A stretch of 64,000 bases of DNA. It comes from Apostichopus japonicus. Lineage: Eukaryota; Echinodermata; Holothuroidea; Aspidochirotida; Stichopodidae. The stretch covers positions 10,884,803 to 10,948,802 of the forward strand of contig NC_092581.1 of NCBI RefSeq assembly GCF_037975245.1, given 5' to 3'. The position numbers and the translations under genes are program-made. Every line of letters begins with the position of its first letter. Within the stretch, counting starts at the first letter, position 1. This document shows positions 12,401 to 41,656 of this stretch, one piece after another. The notes beneath the pieces are model-generated. The model was given only the letters and a program-made list of their open reading frames with translations, was not told the origin of the DNA and did not search any database.

Positions 12401-15400
12401 TATACTACTATGTATAATTTAAAGGGGGGAAAAAAATATATTTCAAAGTTCATTTGGATGATGTCAGACACAGTACTTGGGAGCCAATCAAGCAGATTCT
12501 GTCTTCATGCAGTTGTAACACAGATTTAAAGAAGCAATGGGTGATATTTTACACAAATAGATACATATAGCCAAAATGAGATATTTATTTATCTCGGATG
12601 GATATTCACTGCACGGGTGATAATTTATCCAGTACTGCATCCCAGAATGCAATGCAATGTGGTCCAACTGCCAGCCACACAAGTCCAATGATATGTAGCA
12701 GTGTTTAACACAGAAACCAGAAAATTCTAAATGAGAAAAAATTCAGAGCCAATAAAACGGGCACGCACAATTTTGAACGTTTAATTATTTCCTGCTTCGT
12801 AATGTAGCTGCCAAAACTGAAATAAGACTGACCTTCAAGGTATCCGCAAAGAACACTTTGACCGTGCTGTCCAGGAGCGACGCAGCCACAAAATTCTGAT
12901 CGGGAGAATATTTAGCGCAGAGGATGTCGTCCGCCATCTTTAGAGTCCGCACATGTCGGAATGTTAGTCTCTTCCTGTATCAGAGGAAGACGTAAGGGAG
13001 TGATGGAGGAGAGGTATTATTATCCTTGACCATCGGGGGTCTTAGGGGTGAAAGGCACTACGACTGGACAAGAGTGTGACAGACAATACTGTCACGTTTG
13101 GCTGTCACAGATTCAAGGAATTGGTACCCGAAAGTGATGGGAGAAACGGTTCTGTAAGTACCAACATTGTACACAGTGGTATGACAGATGAAATAAATTT
13201 TACCACAAATAAACAAGCAAGGTTAGTATCATGCTAACCTATACCCAAGGCTCTCACAGGAGATGGGTAGTACTTTAAATACTAACACCATGCCGGTGTT
13301 ATAGTACTAGCACCATACATAAATTTTAAGGTTTAACTTAAAATTTAACCATGTTTCTTTGGTTGAAAAGTGAAACCCTGCATCCCTCCCTCCTTCATCT
13401 TTTGCAGAAAATTTCTGATTTATGATAAGGCAACACAGACTTTTCCTGACAAGCTTGTGAGGGCTCAATATGCAGCCATCAATCATATTTGGGTATTCAA
13501 AATGATGATATTATCAAGCTTCCATAATGGTCATGTATAATTTCTGCATACAACAAGTGAACTTTGTTTAGTTCGGGTATCAAAAAAAAGTGACATATTT
13601 AAATGTTACAAAGTACTTTAGAAAATTGGTAAACTTTAGTTTGCTGCGGGACAATATATTTTCGTTGCAAAAAAGTGACAATTGTGATTATTCTGGCCGT
13701 ATGGTCACCCTAACAGTTAAGGTTGTCTCAGGTGACAAGTGCTAGCATCATACAGATGTTACAGAATAAATGCTAGCAACACACCGGCATTAAATACCAC
13801 TAGAGTAGTACTGGAACCACAAGAGACCTGATCAGACAACAAAGTATCGGTGTTGTGTAGTTTAGGCTGACATGATGGACATGGAAGGGACAAATATTAC
13901 ACAATGCAGCACTACACACTAGCAGCACACAGGCATTAAATATGAAGAGAGTAGTACTGGAGCCACAAGAGATGTGATCAGATAACAAAGTACCGGTGTT
14001 GTGTAGTCTAGGCTGACATGAAAGACATCGAAGGGACAAATATTACACAATGCAGTACTACACACTAGCAGCACACAGGCATTAAATATGAAGAGAGTAG
14101 TACTGGAGCCACAAGAGATGTGATCAGACAACAAAGTACGGTGTTGCGTAGTCTAGACTGATATGAAGGATGTCGAAGGGACAAATATTACACAATGCAG
14201 CACTACACACTAGCAGCACACAGGCATTAAATATGAAGAGAGTAGTACTGGAGCCACAAGAGATGTGATCAGACAACAAAGTACAGTGTTGCGTAGTCTA
14301 GACTGACATGAAGGGCATCGAAGGGACAAATCTAACACATTGATATGTTTCCAAAGAAACAAAGGTATAACTGTTTTATTATAGTTCCACCAGTTTCCAT
14401 GGTGATGCCTTCTGTAATTTGGGTCTTTCAGCTTGCTGTTTAATTCAAAGTTATTGTTCTTTTGTATCATACTGCAGATAGGCAAAACTTTTGTATTCTT
14501 ACTCTCAATGAACAGAAACCGCTGGAGTGAAGCCTGTAGCTTTAGCAAACAATTCTTAGCATTCAGTTTTACCACAATATGACAGAAAACAGAGTGTTTC
14601 GACCACCCTTAGCGACGGATAGACACAATGATTTGTCTATGTACATATCACCTAGCTGTATTTGTATTGTCAATAACTAACACACGCAACTGGCATGCAA
14701 TGATGGATACGATAGGCCACAGTGAGTTAACAACTCTCATACAATAACAGGCTATTGATTGTTCATTTAGCTATTACTGTTAATACATATCTTACTATCT
14801 TAGATGTAAAACTATATACTAGAGGTGGTAACCTGTCTTGGCACCTGCTTTGATATGAAGTGCAGTCAGTGGGCAACCATTTGTCAGGCAACCAAAAAGT
14901 AGACGCCAGTTATGGTAGCATTTACAGACACAAAACTCTATTATATCAGTCTGCTAGATAAACCAATTATCACCTATGCTTCCTTATTATATATGTACAT
15001 ATTATAAAGTAACTGGTAATAGTTCATTAATAACACTATCCATCCCCAGTAAACTTCAGTTTGTTTTTGTTTATATTATTTATCATACTTATATTTGAAG
15101 AAAAAAAAGGACATTTAAATTAAGAGAAACTAAGATAGTAAAGTATAACTTTAGTAAGAAAGGAGAAGTACAAAGATCCATAGAGGTTGCAGTACAGTAC
15201 TCCAATACCTGTAAGCTTACAGAAACAGGAGTATTAAAATAAACTAAATATACACAAAAATTCAGTCCTATGTCTCATAGTAGTACCTACCCTTTACAAT
15301 TACAACCCCTCCCCTGCCCTACCCAGCTATGCCAGCCATGTAGTTCATTTTACAATTAAGGAACACAATACCTGAAATAAATAGTAATAATGTGCTATCA

Positions 15401-18400: not shown

Positions 18401-21400
18401 TAATAAGCCATACAGTAGTACTACAAAAGTTGTATTAATTGTTTGATGTCAAAAAAAAGGCTTTTCATAGGTTTTCAAGGCTTCAGCATATAGCAAATGT
18501 ACCTTGGTTCCTGCAATGCAATGCCTCTCTCCTGGAACGAAAGCTAGACTGAGAATGTATTCAGAGGCCATGGTGCGGACACACTGTTGACTTCCCCTGC
18601 AAGATTGAAATTAAGCAAGAGAAAGTTTAGTAGCAAATGTGCGATTCAACCTTTGGAAAATTAAGAAAAAAATTATGGGGGAAACAAACATATTAAACAC
18701 AGACAGAATTGCTCTCAATCCACTGAGCATACTGAATATTGAAATGAAATATACATATAAATAGAGAGAAAGTAGTCTGATGGTTGACTGCCCTGATAAT
18801 GTTATATATAACATAAAAATATTAAAATAAAGCAGATTTCACTGATATATGTTACGACTGGTACACTACCAGCAAACTGTATGAAATATATACATAGAGA
18901 GAATATAGTCTGAAGGTTGACTGCCCTGATAATGTTATATATAACATAAAAATATTAAAATAAAGCAGATTTCACTGATATATGTTACGACTGGTACACT
19001 ACCAGCAAACTGTATGAAATATATACATAGAGAGAACATAGTCTGAAGGTTGACGACCCTAATTCTGTAATACATAACATAAAAATATTAAAATAAAGCA
19101 GCTTGGCTGATATATTTTAGGACTGGTACACTACCAGCACACTGTATGAAGTATATACATAGAGAGAACATAGTCTGAAGGTTGACTGCCCTAATACTGT
19201 AATACATAACATAAATATATTAAAATAAAGCAGCTTGGCTGATATATTTTAGGACTGGTACACTACCAGCACACTGTATGAAGTATATACATAGAGAGAA
19301 CATAGTCTGAAGGTTGACTGCCCTAATACTGTAATACATAACATAAATATATTAAAATAAAGCAGCTTGGCTGATATATTTTATGACTGGTAGATTACAG
19401 GCACACTGTATTATGCAGTTCACACTGTATGATGTACATATATAGAACATGTAGTACACAGGTAATGTGAAGAACCTAATAAACTCTTAGTTTCAACATG
19501 TTAAACATTAAATTTCTCATATTTTTCAACATATGCATAATATATACTGCATATATGCATAAAATATACTGCAAATATAGATATGCATATATATATATGC
19601 ATATATATACTGCAAATATACTACATGTGGGCTGCATATGCATAGTGCATATATGCATAATATATACTTACTCATGTTTTTCAACATATGCATAATCAAC
19701 ATATCTTGTTTCTCATGGAATGATCAGAGAGCTCCAAATTGCCAATTTCTAAACTGCAAATGTTTGTGTTTTCACGATGGGGAATAAAAAGTTATTTTAC
19801 TCGATTCTGACTGGTCTGTGCTCAGAAGTAGGTGCACATTTAAAACATTACAACAACGAATGGTGGTATATAATTTAGTCTTCAATTAGCTGTTTTACAT
19901 TTATTGAAAGACAGTTTTGTGTTAAGATTACAGTTACCTAAACTGTACCTTACTACACAACAACAACATTTTAAACCTTATACTATATTTGTATTTCTCC
20001 AGTTACTGTTATTTTGGTATTTTGTAAATACAGGAATCGTACAATTTGGCAGCTGTGTCATCAGGATAGTGAGCCACAGTATTTTTCTACTTATAGACCA
20101 TCTAATACATCTAGACAAAGTGCCTTTTTTTATCCAATTTTTGGGCTAAATTACGTGTCTAAAGTCCTGCATCTCGAGGTCTGCATCGAGATACTCAACC
20201 ACTGACTGAAGTTATCAAGAGAACAAGCCACCACCTCTACCTTGATGTGAAAATTACTTCCATCCACAACTTTGGCCCAAAAATTATTTCAATAAGAAGC
20301 ATATTCCATTAGCGAAGCGTACTACAGCATCAGGGATATTAAAAGTGGCTTGCCCTGTTGTTAATACACAATGGTCTGTTTTATTTATGTGTACGGCAGA
20401 TGTTTCTTACAAAATTGACATGATTAACGAGTCTGTTATTACCAGCAGCTCTGTCAATAGTCTATAGAATTTGAAATTGGATGCATACAGGAGTCAATAA
20501 TGCTTTCTTCTCTGCAGAATTGCACACTATTATTTGATGGAGCTCAACGACGATGTTCATGACTTTTTACCATTGTTGTAACGAGCCTTGATTAAAACCA
20601 TCATTTCATCAAATGAAAGATCAATAGAGCTTTATGTACATTACATTTATATGCTGACTTACATTAAGATAGTACTGTGACCCAAGTCATTTACCTCAAT
20701 TCAAGTTTGGAAAAATTCTTCGTTTTTTTATGATTATTATTATTGTTATTATGACAAAAAATGTTTCAAGGGGGTTAAAAGACTGTAATTTTAGAAAAGT
20801 GTTAATCTCCCCACTGAAGCCCTCTACAGAAAATTACTAAACAGTTGTAAAGACTAAAGAGTGGTAGAGACTAAACTTGACATTAAAATATAGTAAACTT
20901 GTAATATAAACCCTGCTGATAGGTTTGATGGTTGCATGGATAGGAACTGGGGGAAGGCAATGGGAGGGAGTGTGGGGGTGGGGGAGAGGTGTCGAAAGGG
21001 AGAGTAATAATAAACTTTAAGATAAGACTTGATGGTTGCATGGAAAGGAACTGGGGGGAAGGGGAGGGCAGGGGAGTGGGGAGGGGGAGAGAGGGAAAGT
21101 AGATAATAAACTAACCTATTCCACATTTTCACTGATTCTGCTGAGCCTGATAGTATTGCTGTGTTATCAGCATTGAAGCAAATTGCTCTCACATCACTAC
21201 GATGTGCTGGTATTGAAAGCTGGCTGCCTGTCGTCACGGTAACATCATTGCCAGCCCATTGATGTATTTCTACTTTGTTGTTGTGCAGCAGTATCACCAA
21301 CGTCCTGTTTCCACCGGCGTCAGAAATGAGATCGAACGATCTGCAGAGAGAGAAAGAACAATGAGTTAACAATTGCATTGTTCTAATGGAAGCAGTAACA

Positions 21401-39900: not shown

Positions 39901-41656
39901 GATCCAAGATTTTACATGGTGTGTAGGAATCTGTTGTGCTCACTTGAAGGAAACTATTAAGAGCTTTGTTTTAACAGTTTTTGTTGTTTCATTGAGATCT
40001 CTGCAGAAGTGCTGTGTGCAAGCTTGGGAAAGCAATTTGAACATTTTAAATAGGTTTTGCATATTGTGCATGTATGTGTGTGACAGATACAGTAAGTGGT
40101 ATTTTGGGGGAAACATTTTTTTTGGTATTTTTTGGGAGAGAAGAGGAAAACTATTTGCTGGATCTTTTTCTTTGTACCTTCCAGCCTTGATTTGTGAAGA
40201 TGAACAAATCATAGAATTAAAACCAAAAATGAAACTGTTAGAGAGTATCAATTTGAAAAAGAGCATGACATTAATTTGCATTGTTTGTTGTTATTGTTGT
40301 TTTGTAGGTGAAGTTAGTATTACAAGCTGCAGTTCAAATGGAGGAAGTGTTCATCTCAGGTGACTTGACACAGCAAGATGTGGATGACAACATGGTGTTA
40401 CTGGATGATCTAGGTATACAGCAGGTATGAACAGCTTAGGACAAACATTATTACATTATGGACTGTAGGAATACAGCAGGAATGAACAGCTTAGGATAAA
40501 CATTACATTATATACTGTAGGTATACAGCAGGTATAAACAGCATAGGATAAACATTACATTATGTACTGTAGGTACACAACAGGTATGAACAGCTTAGGA
40601 TAAACATTACATTATGTATTGTAGGTACACAACAGGTATGAACAGCTTAGGATAAACATTACATTATGTACTGTAGGTATACAACAGGTATGGACAGCTT
40701 AGGATAAACATTACATTATGTACTGTAGGTTTAGTATACAGCAGGTATGAACAGCTTAGGATAAACATTACATTATATACGGTAGGTATACAGCAGGTAT
40801 AAACAGCATAGGATAAACATTAAATTATGTACTGTAGGTATACAATAGGTATGGACAGCTTAGGATAAACAATACATTATGTACTGTGTGTATAGTATAC
40901 AGCAGGTATGAACAGCTTAGGATAAACATTATTACATTATGTACTGTAGGTATACAACAGGTATGAACAGCTTAGTATATACATTACATTATGTACTTGT
41001 AGGTATACAACAGGTATGGACAGCTTAGGATAAACAATACATTATGTACTGTGTGTATAGTATACAGCAGGTATGAACAGCTTAGGATAAACATTATTAC
41101 ATTATGTACTGTAGGTATACAACAGGTATGAACAGCTTAGTATATACATTACATTATGTACTTGTAGGTATACAGCAGGTATGAACAGCTTAGGACAAAC
41201 AATACATTATGTACTGCAGGTATACAACAGGTATCAACAGCCTACATTACGTTATGGACTGTAGGTATACAGCAGGTATCAACAGCTTAGTCTTCATCAC
41301 TGATTATTGCACACTGGGTAACATCTTGGATGTAAAATTATACATTCTAGCTATAAATCAGTTCTATATTCACATTCACTTACAAGGTTCTGCTAAATAA
41401 CTACTTTTATTTTTTTTTTGGGGGGGGGGCGGTTGAAGGAGGATGTAAACCCCAAGCCAGCTCCTTCCCCACCCCCGTATTCAGGCCTGGCTGCATTTCT
41501 GTCCATTGATATTAATTCAATCTTCCTCACCTGCAGGGTCCTCAAGTCAGCCTCTTCACCGGTGAAGAAGAAATTTTTGCATTCAAAAGAACTTTGTCAA
41601 GACTGAATGAAATGCAGACCAAGGAATACTGGAAAGAGTCAAAGCGAGCTCTCTGA
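30807..41656 (+). CDS. AFG1L: AFG1L (LACE1) orthologue, mitochondrial AFG1-type ATPase, 11 coding exons, complete
   Basis: Joined exons give 450 residues (human 481). Known family role: an AAA-type ATPase of mitochondria, linked to turnover of nuclear-encoded respiratory-complex subunits. Seen here: an Arg/Leu-rich N-terminus that looks like a mitochondrial presequence (residues 1-30), Walker A GAVGTGKT at 109-116, Walker B FLCFDEF at 182-188, a sensor-1 segment ATSNRPP at 215-221 and the family motif DLYKNGLQR at 223-231 that supplies the arginine finger. The C-terminal motif [10 protein letters not shown] is also present. All ten introns are GT-AG and phases close. The start is inferred: exon 1 has no sequence homology, but it ends in phase 1 exactly as exon 2 requires. 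The gene lies head to head with WDR3 and tail to tail with NR2E1. Confidence 0.95.
30960..31070. repeat. GGCCTAGCCTA simple repeats
   Basis: Several TAGGCCTAGCCTAGGCCTAG-type palindromic words cluster in the 5' part of AFG1L intron 1. Low-complexity; no function suggested. Confidence 0.6.
31179..31676. mobile_element. MITE with 8-bp target duplication CAGTAATG, 498 bp
   Basis: Flanked by perfect CAGTAATG copies (31171-31178 and 31677-31684). Ends are inverted repeats sharing AATTATAGAATACAGGGCCA, with GCATCCGGATGCGCGG further in. The interior holds a ~117-bp tandem duplication (CATTTTGACTCCGCATCCG, CGAAAAGTTTCAACATATAC). GG-type ends and an 8-bp duplication suggest Merlin or hAT; the family is open. 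In AFG1L intron 1. Confidence 0.8.
32538..32695 (+). CDS. AFG1L: AFG1L exon 2 (residues 39-91)
   Basis: Encodes [20 protein letters not shown] and [12 protein letters not shown], matching the family segment before the ATPase domain (the DPHQ motif is typical of AFG1 proteins). Acceptor ACAG, donor GTATAT. Confidence 0.92.
32887..33049 (+). CDS. AFG1L: AFG1L exon 3 (residues 92-145), Walker A
   Basis: Encodes [20 protein letters not shown], the P-loop, and [10 protein letters not shown]. Acceptor GTAG, donor GTAAGT. It ends one base into an Arg codon. Confidence 0.96.
33480..33690. repeat. Dispersed repeat, copy 1, flanking AFG1L exon 4
   Basis: Shares with 34140-34335 the words TCAGCATT, CCAATCTCCAT/CCATCTCCAT, ATGTGGCTC-ATGATGTCA, AGACTTG-T-AAGTCTTCA and TGATATCT/CGATATCT. 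Same orientation as the second copy. Confidence 0.6.
33907..34037 (+). CDS. AFG1L: AFG1L exon 4 (residues 146-189), Walker B
   Basis: Encodes [20 protein letters not shown] and CFDEFQ. Acceptor ACAG, donor GTTTGT. This exon is flanked by two direct copies of a dispersed repeat (about 33480-33690 and 34140-34335). Confidence 0.95.
34140..34335. repeat. Dispersed repeat, copy 2, flanking AFG1L exon 4
   Basis: Direct partner of 33480-33690, about 650 bp away, on the other side of exon 4. Its family is not recognised. Confidence 0.6.
34858..35016 (+). CDS. AFG1L: AFG1L exon 5 (residues 190-242)
   Basis: Encodes [20 protein letters not shown] and [17 protein letters not shown], the sensor and arginine-finger region. 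Acceptor TCAG, donor GTTTGA. Confidence 0.97.
35388..35436 (+). CDS. AFG1L: AFG1L exon 6 (residues 243-258 plus one base)
   Basis: A 49-nt exon encoding [16 protein letters not shown], matching human [16 protein letters not shown]. Acceptor ATAG, donor GTAAGC. Confidence 0.95.
36227..36325 (+). CDS. AFG1L: AFG1L exon 7 (residues 259-291)
   Basis: Encodes [20 protein letters not shown] and EKVYNKMI, aligned with human ELPAAGKLYYLTSEADVEAV. The acceptor AAAG follows a (TTA)n tract. Donor GTAAAG. Confidence 0.92.
36326..38340 (+). other. AFG1L intron 7
   Basis: The longest AFG1L intron. Besides the stem-loop repeat at 36588 and a GA-rich stretch (36700-36890), nothing recognised. Confidence 0.6.
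36588..36636 (-). repeat. Hammerhead-like stem-loop repeat, copy A (AFG1L intron 7)
   Basis: On the minus strand: TTTGAAGAAGATCCTGCTAG continuing GATCGAACGTCAGGCC. The GATCCT/AGGATC stem with a GCT loop is intact. The CUGAAGA box reads TTGAAGA and the GAAA box has lost one A. Inverted relative to copy B. Confidence 0.5.
38341..38441 (+). CDS. AFG1L: AFG1L exon 8 (residues 292-325)
   Basis: Encodes [20 protein letters not shown] and DLCEQ, aligned with human QGRELRLNKACGTVADCTFE. Acceptor TCAG, donor GTGGGA. Confidence 0.94.
39137..39277 (+). CDS. AFG1L: AFG1L exon 9 (residues 326-372)
   Basis: Encodes [20 protein letters not shown] and [14 protein letters not shown]. Acceptor TTAG, donor GTCAGT. 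Confidence 0.95.
40308..40424 (+). CDS. AFG1L: AFG1L exon 10 (residues 373-411)
   Basis: Encodes [20 protein letters not shown] and LLDDLGIQQ. Acceptor GTAG, donor CAG/GTATGA. The last 14 exon bases plus this donor form the first unit of the minisatellite that fills most of the next intron. Reading through the donor gives Val and then a stop. Confidence 0.94.
40411..41300 (+). repeat. ~52-60-bp minisatellite repeating the AFG1L exon 10 donor site
   Basis: About 17 units of TAGGTATACAGCAGGTATGA followed by ACAGCTTAGGATAAACATT and ACATTATGTACTG. The first unit straddles the exon 10/intron 10 border: its first 14 bases are coding. Eight later units contain CAGGTATGA exactly like the true donor. 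A three-unit block near 40880-41035 is duplicated at about 41045-41160, so the array also has higher-order repeats. Confidence 0.93.
41537..41656 (+). CDS. AFG1L: AFG1L exon 11, last coding exon (residues 412-450 and stop)
   Basis: Encodes [20 protein letters not shown] and [12 protein letters not shown], matching human [27 protein letters not shown]. Acceptor GCAG; TGA at 41654-41656. Confidence 0.97.
   Translation, partial: GPQVSLFTGEEEIFAFKRTLSRLNEMQTKEYWKESKRAL

Follow-up and report, generated by a model that had tools for sequence, protein, structure and literature searches.

A minisatellite spanning the 5' splice junction of AFG1L exon 10 in the sea cucumber Apostichopus japonicus, and the apparent frequency of similar border duplications in its genome

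The window analysed here, a 64-kb stretch of the A. japonicus genome, carries on its forward strand AFG1L, the gene of a mitochondrial ATPase. A genome search with the Pfam AFG1_ATPase profile gave three exon matches, all within this one gene. We set its exon borders from reading frame and splice consensus; exons 2-11 join in an open frame, with the exon-8 acceptor placed by eye at about 38341, and the name exon 10 presumes one further 5' exon upstream of 32538. The 3' end of the gene is occupied as follows.

40308..40424, + strand: AFG1L exon 10, 117 bp (39 codons, phase 0-0), an open frame with acceptor TTGTTTTGTAG and donor CAG/GTATGA
40411..41290, + strand: minisatellite of 17 units of about 52 bp, its first 14 bp exonic (TRF and unit alignment)
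40425..41536, + strand: intron 10, 1112 bp
40847..41174, + strand: block duplication within the array, 40847-41009 recurring as 41012-41174 (163 identical bp at a shift of 165)
41537..41656, + strand: AFG1L exon 11, 39 residues and a stop (at 41656)

The repeat unit spans the inferred exon-intron boundary. TRF start and reading frame agree that the array begins inside exon 10 and that the unit contains the last 14 coding bases, as an earlier note on this DNA had proposed; it fills intron 10 except for the last 246 bp and ends by TRF at 41290, not at 41300 as that note had it. TRF describes a period of 52 with 16.6 copies (score 1176) and an additional higher period of 165 bp. Cut at the donor, the array resolves into 17 units that are on average 89% identical in pairwise comparison, and its start and end share a core of about 29 bp. 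Unit 1 holds the true donor, so that the figure of about 17 units given earlier is right for the total, while 16 follow the true donor. The 163 bp that are identical at the 165-bp shift show a recent duplication of a block of roughly three units; in the one haplotype available, this points indirectly to changes in array length. Elsewhere in the window no exon was recognised by eye at eight other long arrays, and the same holds for the two long clean minisatellites at 13773-14339 (146 bp x3.9) and 18755-19411 (132 bp x5).

Copies of the donor are found throughout the array.

40422..40430, + strand: inferred authentic donor CAG/GTATGA, junction 40424/40425
40480..40485, + strand: dead donor of unit 2, CAG/GAATGA, its GT lost (unit alignment)
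40529..41281, + strand: seven variant decoys, with GTATAA at 40532 and 40797, GTATGG at 40688 and 41014, TAG/GTATGG at 40849, and GTATCA at 41231 and 41276
40581..41184, + strand: eight exact decoys CAG/GTATGA, their GT at 40584, 40636, 40745, 40906, 40961, 41071, 41126 and 41179
41165..41201, + strand: segment of unit 15 that matches the true junction without a difference for 14 exonic and 23 intronic bases

The + strand of the 64-kb window contains the word CAGGTATGA nine times, always inside the array (the true site and eight copies), and the reverse complement of this word is absent from the window. Eight of the 16 later units keep the exact donor 9-mer, six keep CAG/GTAT with an altered end (CAG/GTATGG, CAG/GTATAA and CAG/GTATCA, two each), one reads TAG/GTATGG and one is without GT; AG/GT is thus kept in 15 of 16 copies, in many but not all. 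These counts bear out the earlier description of eight exact repeats, of CAG/GTAT in most of the others (6 of the remaining 8) and of a second donor-like word, TGTAG/GTATAC, in many units (8 occurrences).

We found little that would single out the true site locally. Unit 15 equals the true junction across 37 bases, so no cue inside that span marks the correct donor. Donor strength was considered as the selector and rejected: by a human-type matrix, the true site scores 4.20, is equalled by eight copies and is exceeded by two CAG/GTATGG copies (4.52) and by an exonic CAG/GTGACT (4.23). This exonic word, at window position 40360 inside exon 10, is by the same matrix an upstream competitor of the true donor, and since it is as strong as the true site, a plain rule by which the first donor wins does not suffice. 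Local RNA structure hiding the decoys was likewise rejected; the predicted probability that the donor 9-mer is unpaired is 0.030 at the true site and 0.004-0.060 at the 15 decoys, low everywhere and without distinction of the true site.

The exon end from which the units are built appears to be old. In 11 of the 12 bacterial AFG1/ZapE relatives fetched, the first half of exon 10 and the exon 11 motif FxRTxSRLxEMQ align, and the stretch between them, which includes DDLGIQQ, is absent from the bacterial relatives compared; the twelfth relative, L027, was misframed in translation. The human protein presumably reads DDLGLSQ where the sea cucumber protein has DDLGIQQ, which suggests that the end of AFG1L exon 10 is ancestral. 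The Pfam AFG1 model ends upstream of the exon 10/11 junction, and a PDB search with exons 9-11 as the query gave no match. A mitochondrial genome is also represented, as contig C35 (16,099 bp), with frames that are open under the echinoderm and invertebrate codes alike and a gene order, named by eye, of COX1, ND4L, COX2, ATP6, COX3, ND3, ND4, ND5, ND6 (reverse), CYTB, then ND1 and ND2. This order is one of echinoderms, and translation with the echinoderm code yields asparagines where they are expected, as in GGFGNWL of COX1.

GTA-TGA adjoins the true donor, and read-through gives valine followed by a stop, as had been claimed. For the 15 decoys that keep GT, this stop would sit 101-845 nt upstream of the new junction. 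A stop well upstream of a junction commits an mRNA to decay, and on the assumption that this rule is valid in echinoderms, decay is the expected outcome for any decoy. The earlier note had left open truncation of the last 39 residues or decay; exon 11 does encode 39 residues, and by the rule just given decay is to be expected. From the reading of these junctions, a surviving protein, if there were any, would be identical whichever decoy was used, and the expected decoy product would be an mRNA subject to decay rather than an array of distinct proteins.

Arrays of this kind have a published name. In lancelets, minisatellites across exon-intron borders have been called mirages and are reported with normal splicing (PMC3087553, PMC3902484), in Adh3 and the globins BflGb6 and BflGb9 (PMC3087553) and in TnC and PGBD5 (PMC3902484). 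They match the AFG1L array in anatomy: tandem duplications spanning borders, many copies with AG/GT, units of 10-160 bp, 5' and 3' borders, and several genes per genome, as also found here. The AFG1L array differs in its echinoderm host and in its 17 units, compared with 3 and 6 for BflGb6, and whereas somatic instability (Adh3) and RT-PCR are described for the lancelet cases, it is known from genomic sequence. We therefore regard it as a good, large instance of an already published class. Minisatellites on exon-intron borders are also described in human segmentally duplicated genes, where the report counts 27 intron modifications by tandem repeats, with alternative transcripts in 66%, and states that repeats at such boundaries can create new introns (PMC2812944). 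Those cases belong to young primate gene families whose transcripts show altered splicing and new introns, whereas AFG1L is one gene, read in DNA; the 66% mean that neutrality is not safe to assume everywhere. Tandem duplication of AG/GT proto-splice sites has been proposed as a route to new introns (PMC2891723, PMC4974935; discussed in PMC3087553), and as outlined there, duplicated border segments supply splice sites as they do here, although the AFG1L array lies in an existing intron and shows no new one. Among titles and abstract openings in the open literature searched, we found exon-border minisatellites reported in lancelets and human duplicated genes, and no report from echinoderms; a search for papers on competing donors gave none, possibly owing to its phrasing.

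To judge how frequent such structures are in A. japonicus, we drew on three Pfam families, whose 140 hits merge to 132 distinct exons, not all vetted as exons of working genes. The sample covers 57 of the 100 Mito_carr places listed (30 cut automatically, 27 fetched), 64 of 79 Helicase_C and all 19 AAA places, every Helicase_C and AAA locus having flanks of 370-400 bp and a subset of 23 exons having flanks of 1.5 kb. Borders were again taken from frame and consensus, and reading by eye covered the loci flagged by TRF or self-comparison, including part of the weak self-matches (25-33 bits). Ten of the 132 exons (7.6%, CI 3.7-13.5%) carry border duplications, eight at 5' and two at 3' splice sites, so that several unrelated genes of this genome show the structure; the proteins named are those we take the family sequences to represent.

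L048, 5' site, SLC25A1-like: 186 bp x3, about 113 exonic bp
L058, 5' site, SLC25A24-like: 110 bp, about 50 exonic bp, 3 copies
L092, 5' site, DEAD-box: 160 bp x2
L097, 5' site, SNF2: CAG/GTGTGT repeated 4 times, and a GTGTAA variant
L104, 5' site, SNF2-type: 156 bp, 2 copies beyond the true end
L108, 5' site, SNF2 (C19:5596208-5597094): two diverged, decayed copies in the intron, without an intact donor
L119, 5' site, DEAD-box, 510-711 (C3:16557791-16557992): 108 bp, one further copy, 100% identical
L151, 5' site, DEAD-box: 64 bp, at least 6 copies
L064, 3' site, UCP-like (C1:4286277-4286946, minus-strand gene): 134 bp x5
L127, 3' site, AAA, 1-450 (C9:31551152 onwards): unit of about 235 bp with a nested 18-bp array

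Flanks of other loci served as the control. When coding pieces were compared with masked flanks at 33 bits, 9 of 132 exons matched their own flanks (L048, L059, L119, L092, L058, L127, L064, L151 and L108) as against 5 of 16757 pairs with other loci; at 25 bits the figures were 15 of 132 and 107 of 16757. L059 was rejected as a border case because its duplication contains no splice junction: in its reverse complement, at 2133-2286 (C9:13578923-13579076), a mitochondrial carrier gene without introns has the 3' end of its frame, some 150 coding bases, duplicated at 83% together with some following sequence just after the stop. Two counted cases were found by TRF, L097, whose own-flank score of 28.3 lies under 33 bits, and L104, whose copied part is outside the Pfam match. 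L108 was not reported by TRF, and TRF counts are therefore lower bounds. Three further candidates were left uncounted, namely L083, a 175-bp array stopping just short of the acceptor, L120, a 19-bp repeat whose copies are without the donor, and L157, a match of about 65% that is possibly a decayed copy.

In AFG1L, and likewise in 7 of the 8 new 5' cases, the 9-nt donor of the inferred true site recurs unchanged in a decoy further downstream. The identity of the two L119 copies indicates a very young duplication. Each 134-bp unit of L064 combines an acceptor-like site with about 80 bp of UCP-like exon whose frame is largely kept. Of the five units, the last alone can be the real exon start, and a 3' array of this kind would be expected to be more difficult to ignore than one at a 5' site. 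At L127, an upstream copy includes the exon start together with its acceptor and tract, and an 18-bp minisatellite flanks this copy, an array nested in a mirage. The split of 8 to 2 between 5' and 3' sites is not significant (p 0.11); the 5' excess (8 of 10) fits the persistence of copies that fall into the intron. The surveyed 182 kb contain 51 arrays of period 20 or more, and a model of random starts predicts 3.1-4.0 border arrays where TRF detected 8 (p 0.013-0.051, depending on the period cut-off); among the 23 exons flanked by 1.5 kb, 3 were found and 0.51 expected (p 0.015). This hints that arrays may favour junctions over random placement, but the short Helicase_C and AAA flanks bias the estimate, which we take as suggestive.

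The explanation that we consider highly probable is that the AFG1L array is a mirage, built by repeated tandem duplication across the 5' splice junction, whose copies are ignored and which is essentially neutral. A real splice junction with its exonic bases has been copied, apparently locally, into an array of potential decoy donors. Arrays would arise at many places in a minisatellite-rich genome, and those that cross an exon end would do little harm and persist, since the original exon is left intact and further copies land in the intron. The spliceosome would take the exon-defined donor adjoining the exon and ignore the others, and array length would shift by unequal exchange or slippage. 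We infer correct AFG1L splicing by analogy with the lancelet reports. As the decoys share the donor 9-mer with the inferred true site, normal splicing would mean that position, not donor sequence, selects, and choice of the true AFG1L donor by exon-definition context, which the earlier note had offered as its alternative, is our preferred reading.

The main idea of that note, that donor copy number sets the loss of the true donor to AFG1L mRNA decay and that array length thereby tunes the dose of a mitochondrial ATPase, appears unlikely to us. Eight exact and seven near-exact decoys with GT in 15 of 16 copies are what it would need, but recent duplication also predicts GT retention. With any of the 15 decoys the stop would precede the junction by no less than 101 nt, and precedents exist in the human boundary repeats that affect splicing (PMC2812944) and in a C. 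elegans minisatellite described as over-represented near multiple splicing decisions (PMC4039745), yet the lancelet mirages are reported to leave splicing undisturbed (PMC3087553, PMC3902484), and the presence of the same structure in unrelated genes is more in keeping with a mutational process than with a switch specific to one gene.

That a mobile or pre-existing repeat was inserted and the exon end recruited from it is, in our view, very improbable. The shared core of about 29 bp at the first and last units would suit such an insertion, but two whole-genome DNA searches with the array, which skip simple repeats and very common words, found no copy elsewhere: all 16 reported matches lie at the AFG1L locus, and the single other place found, on C6, is an unrelated 14-bp low-complexity repeat at 65% identity. 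The dispersed, near-identical copies that would mark an introner or mobile element were not found, and the local origin claimed earlier holds in these searches. Moreover, the exon end looks ancestral, given the human DDLGLSQ that we take to correspond to DDLGIQQ, and the exon pieces copied in the ten other cases, about 20 to 113 bp long, come from different genes.

Hardly any weight attaches to the idea that every unit acts as a recursive (ratchet) splice site, in which TAG/GTATAC and CAG/GTATGA would serve as acceptor-donor words for stepwise removal of the intron; two AG/GT words do lie 11 bp apart in most units, but pyrimidines make up 45-60% of the 20 nt preceding the TAG at 11 unit sites, as against 70-80% at five real AFG1L acceptors, and at these 11 sites no pyrimidine-rich acceptor directly precedes a donor. 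Misassembly of tandem arrays does occur, but an assembly artefact is extremely improbable here, given units that differ by about 11% on average and HiFi reads that, in the apparent source assembly, average 14.7 kb, far above 880 bp (PMC10344927).

Finally, the apparent frequency of border duplications in an echinoderm is a more interesting result than the AFG1L locus itself. The earlier note knew of few arrays seeded across an exon-intron border, a view that gives way before the lancelet mirages and the 10 of 132 exons sampled here. It is conceivable, though we put it forward tentatively and think it rather doubtful as a whole, that several percent of coding exons carry junction copies, that thousands of genes have exact donor look-alikes told apart by position only, and that such arrays, AFG1L included, favour borders, vary between individuals and form a standing source of introns and splicing variation. 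The very young 108-bp duplication of L119 would lend itself well to a search for presence/absence polymorphism. If the rate held genome-wide, comparison of related holothurians would show whether border arrays become new introns, and one RNA-seq set would allow thousands of loci to be tested for how a splice site is chosen among identical ones. Where the authentic donor and its decoys share their local sequence, only position, through exon definition, acceptor distance or the order of transcription, can explain which one is used, and border arrays are thus a natural test of how cells choose their splice sites.
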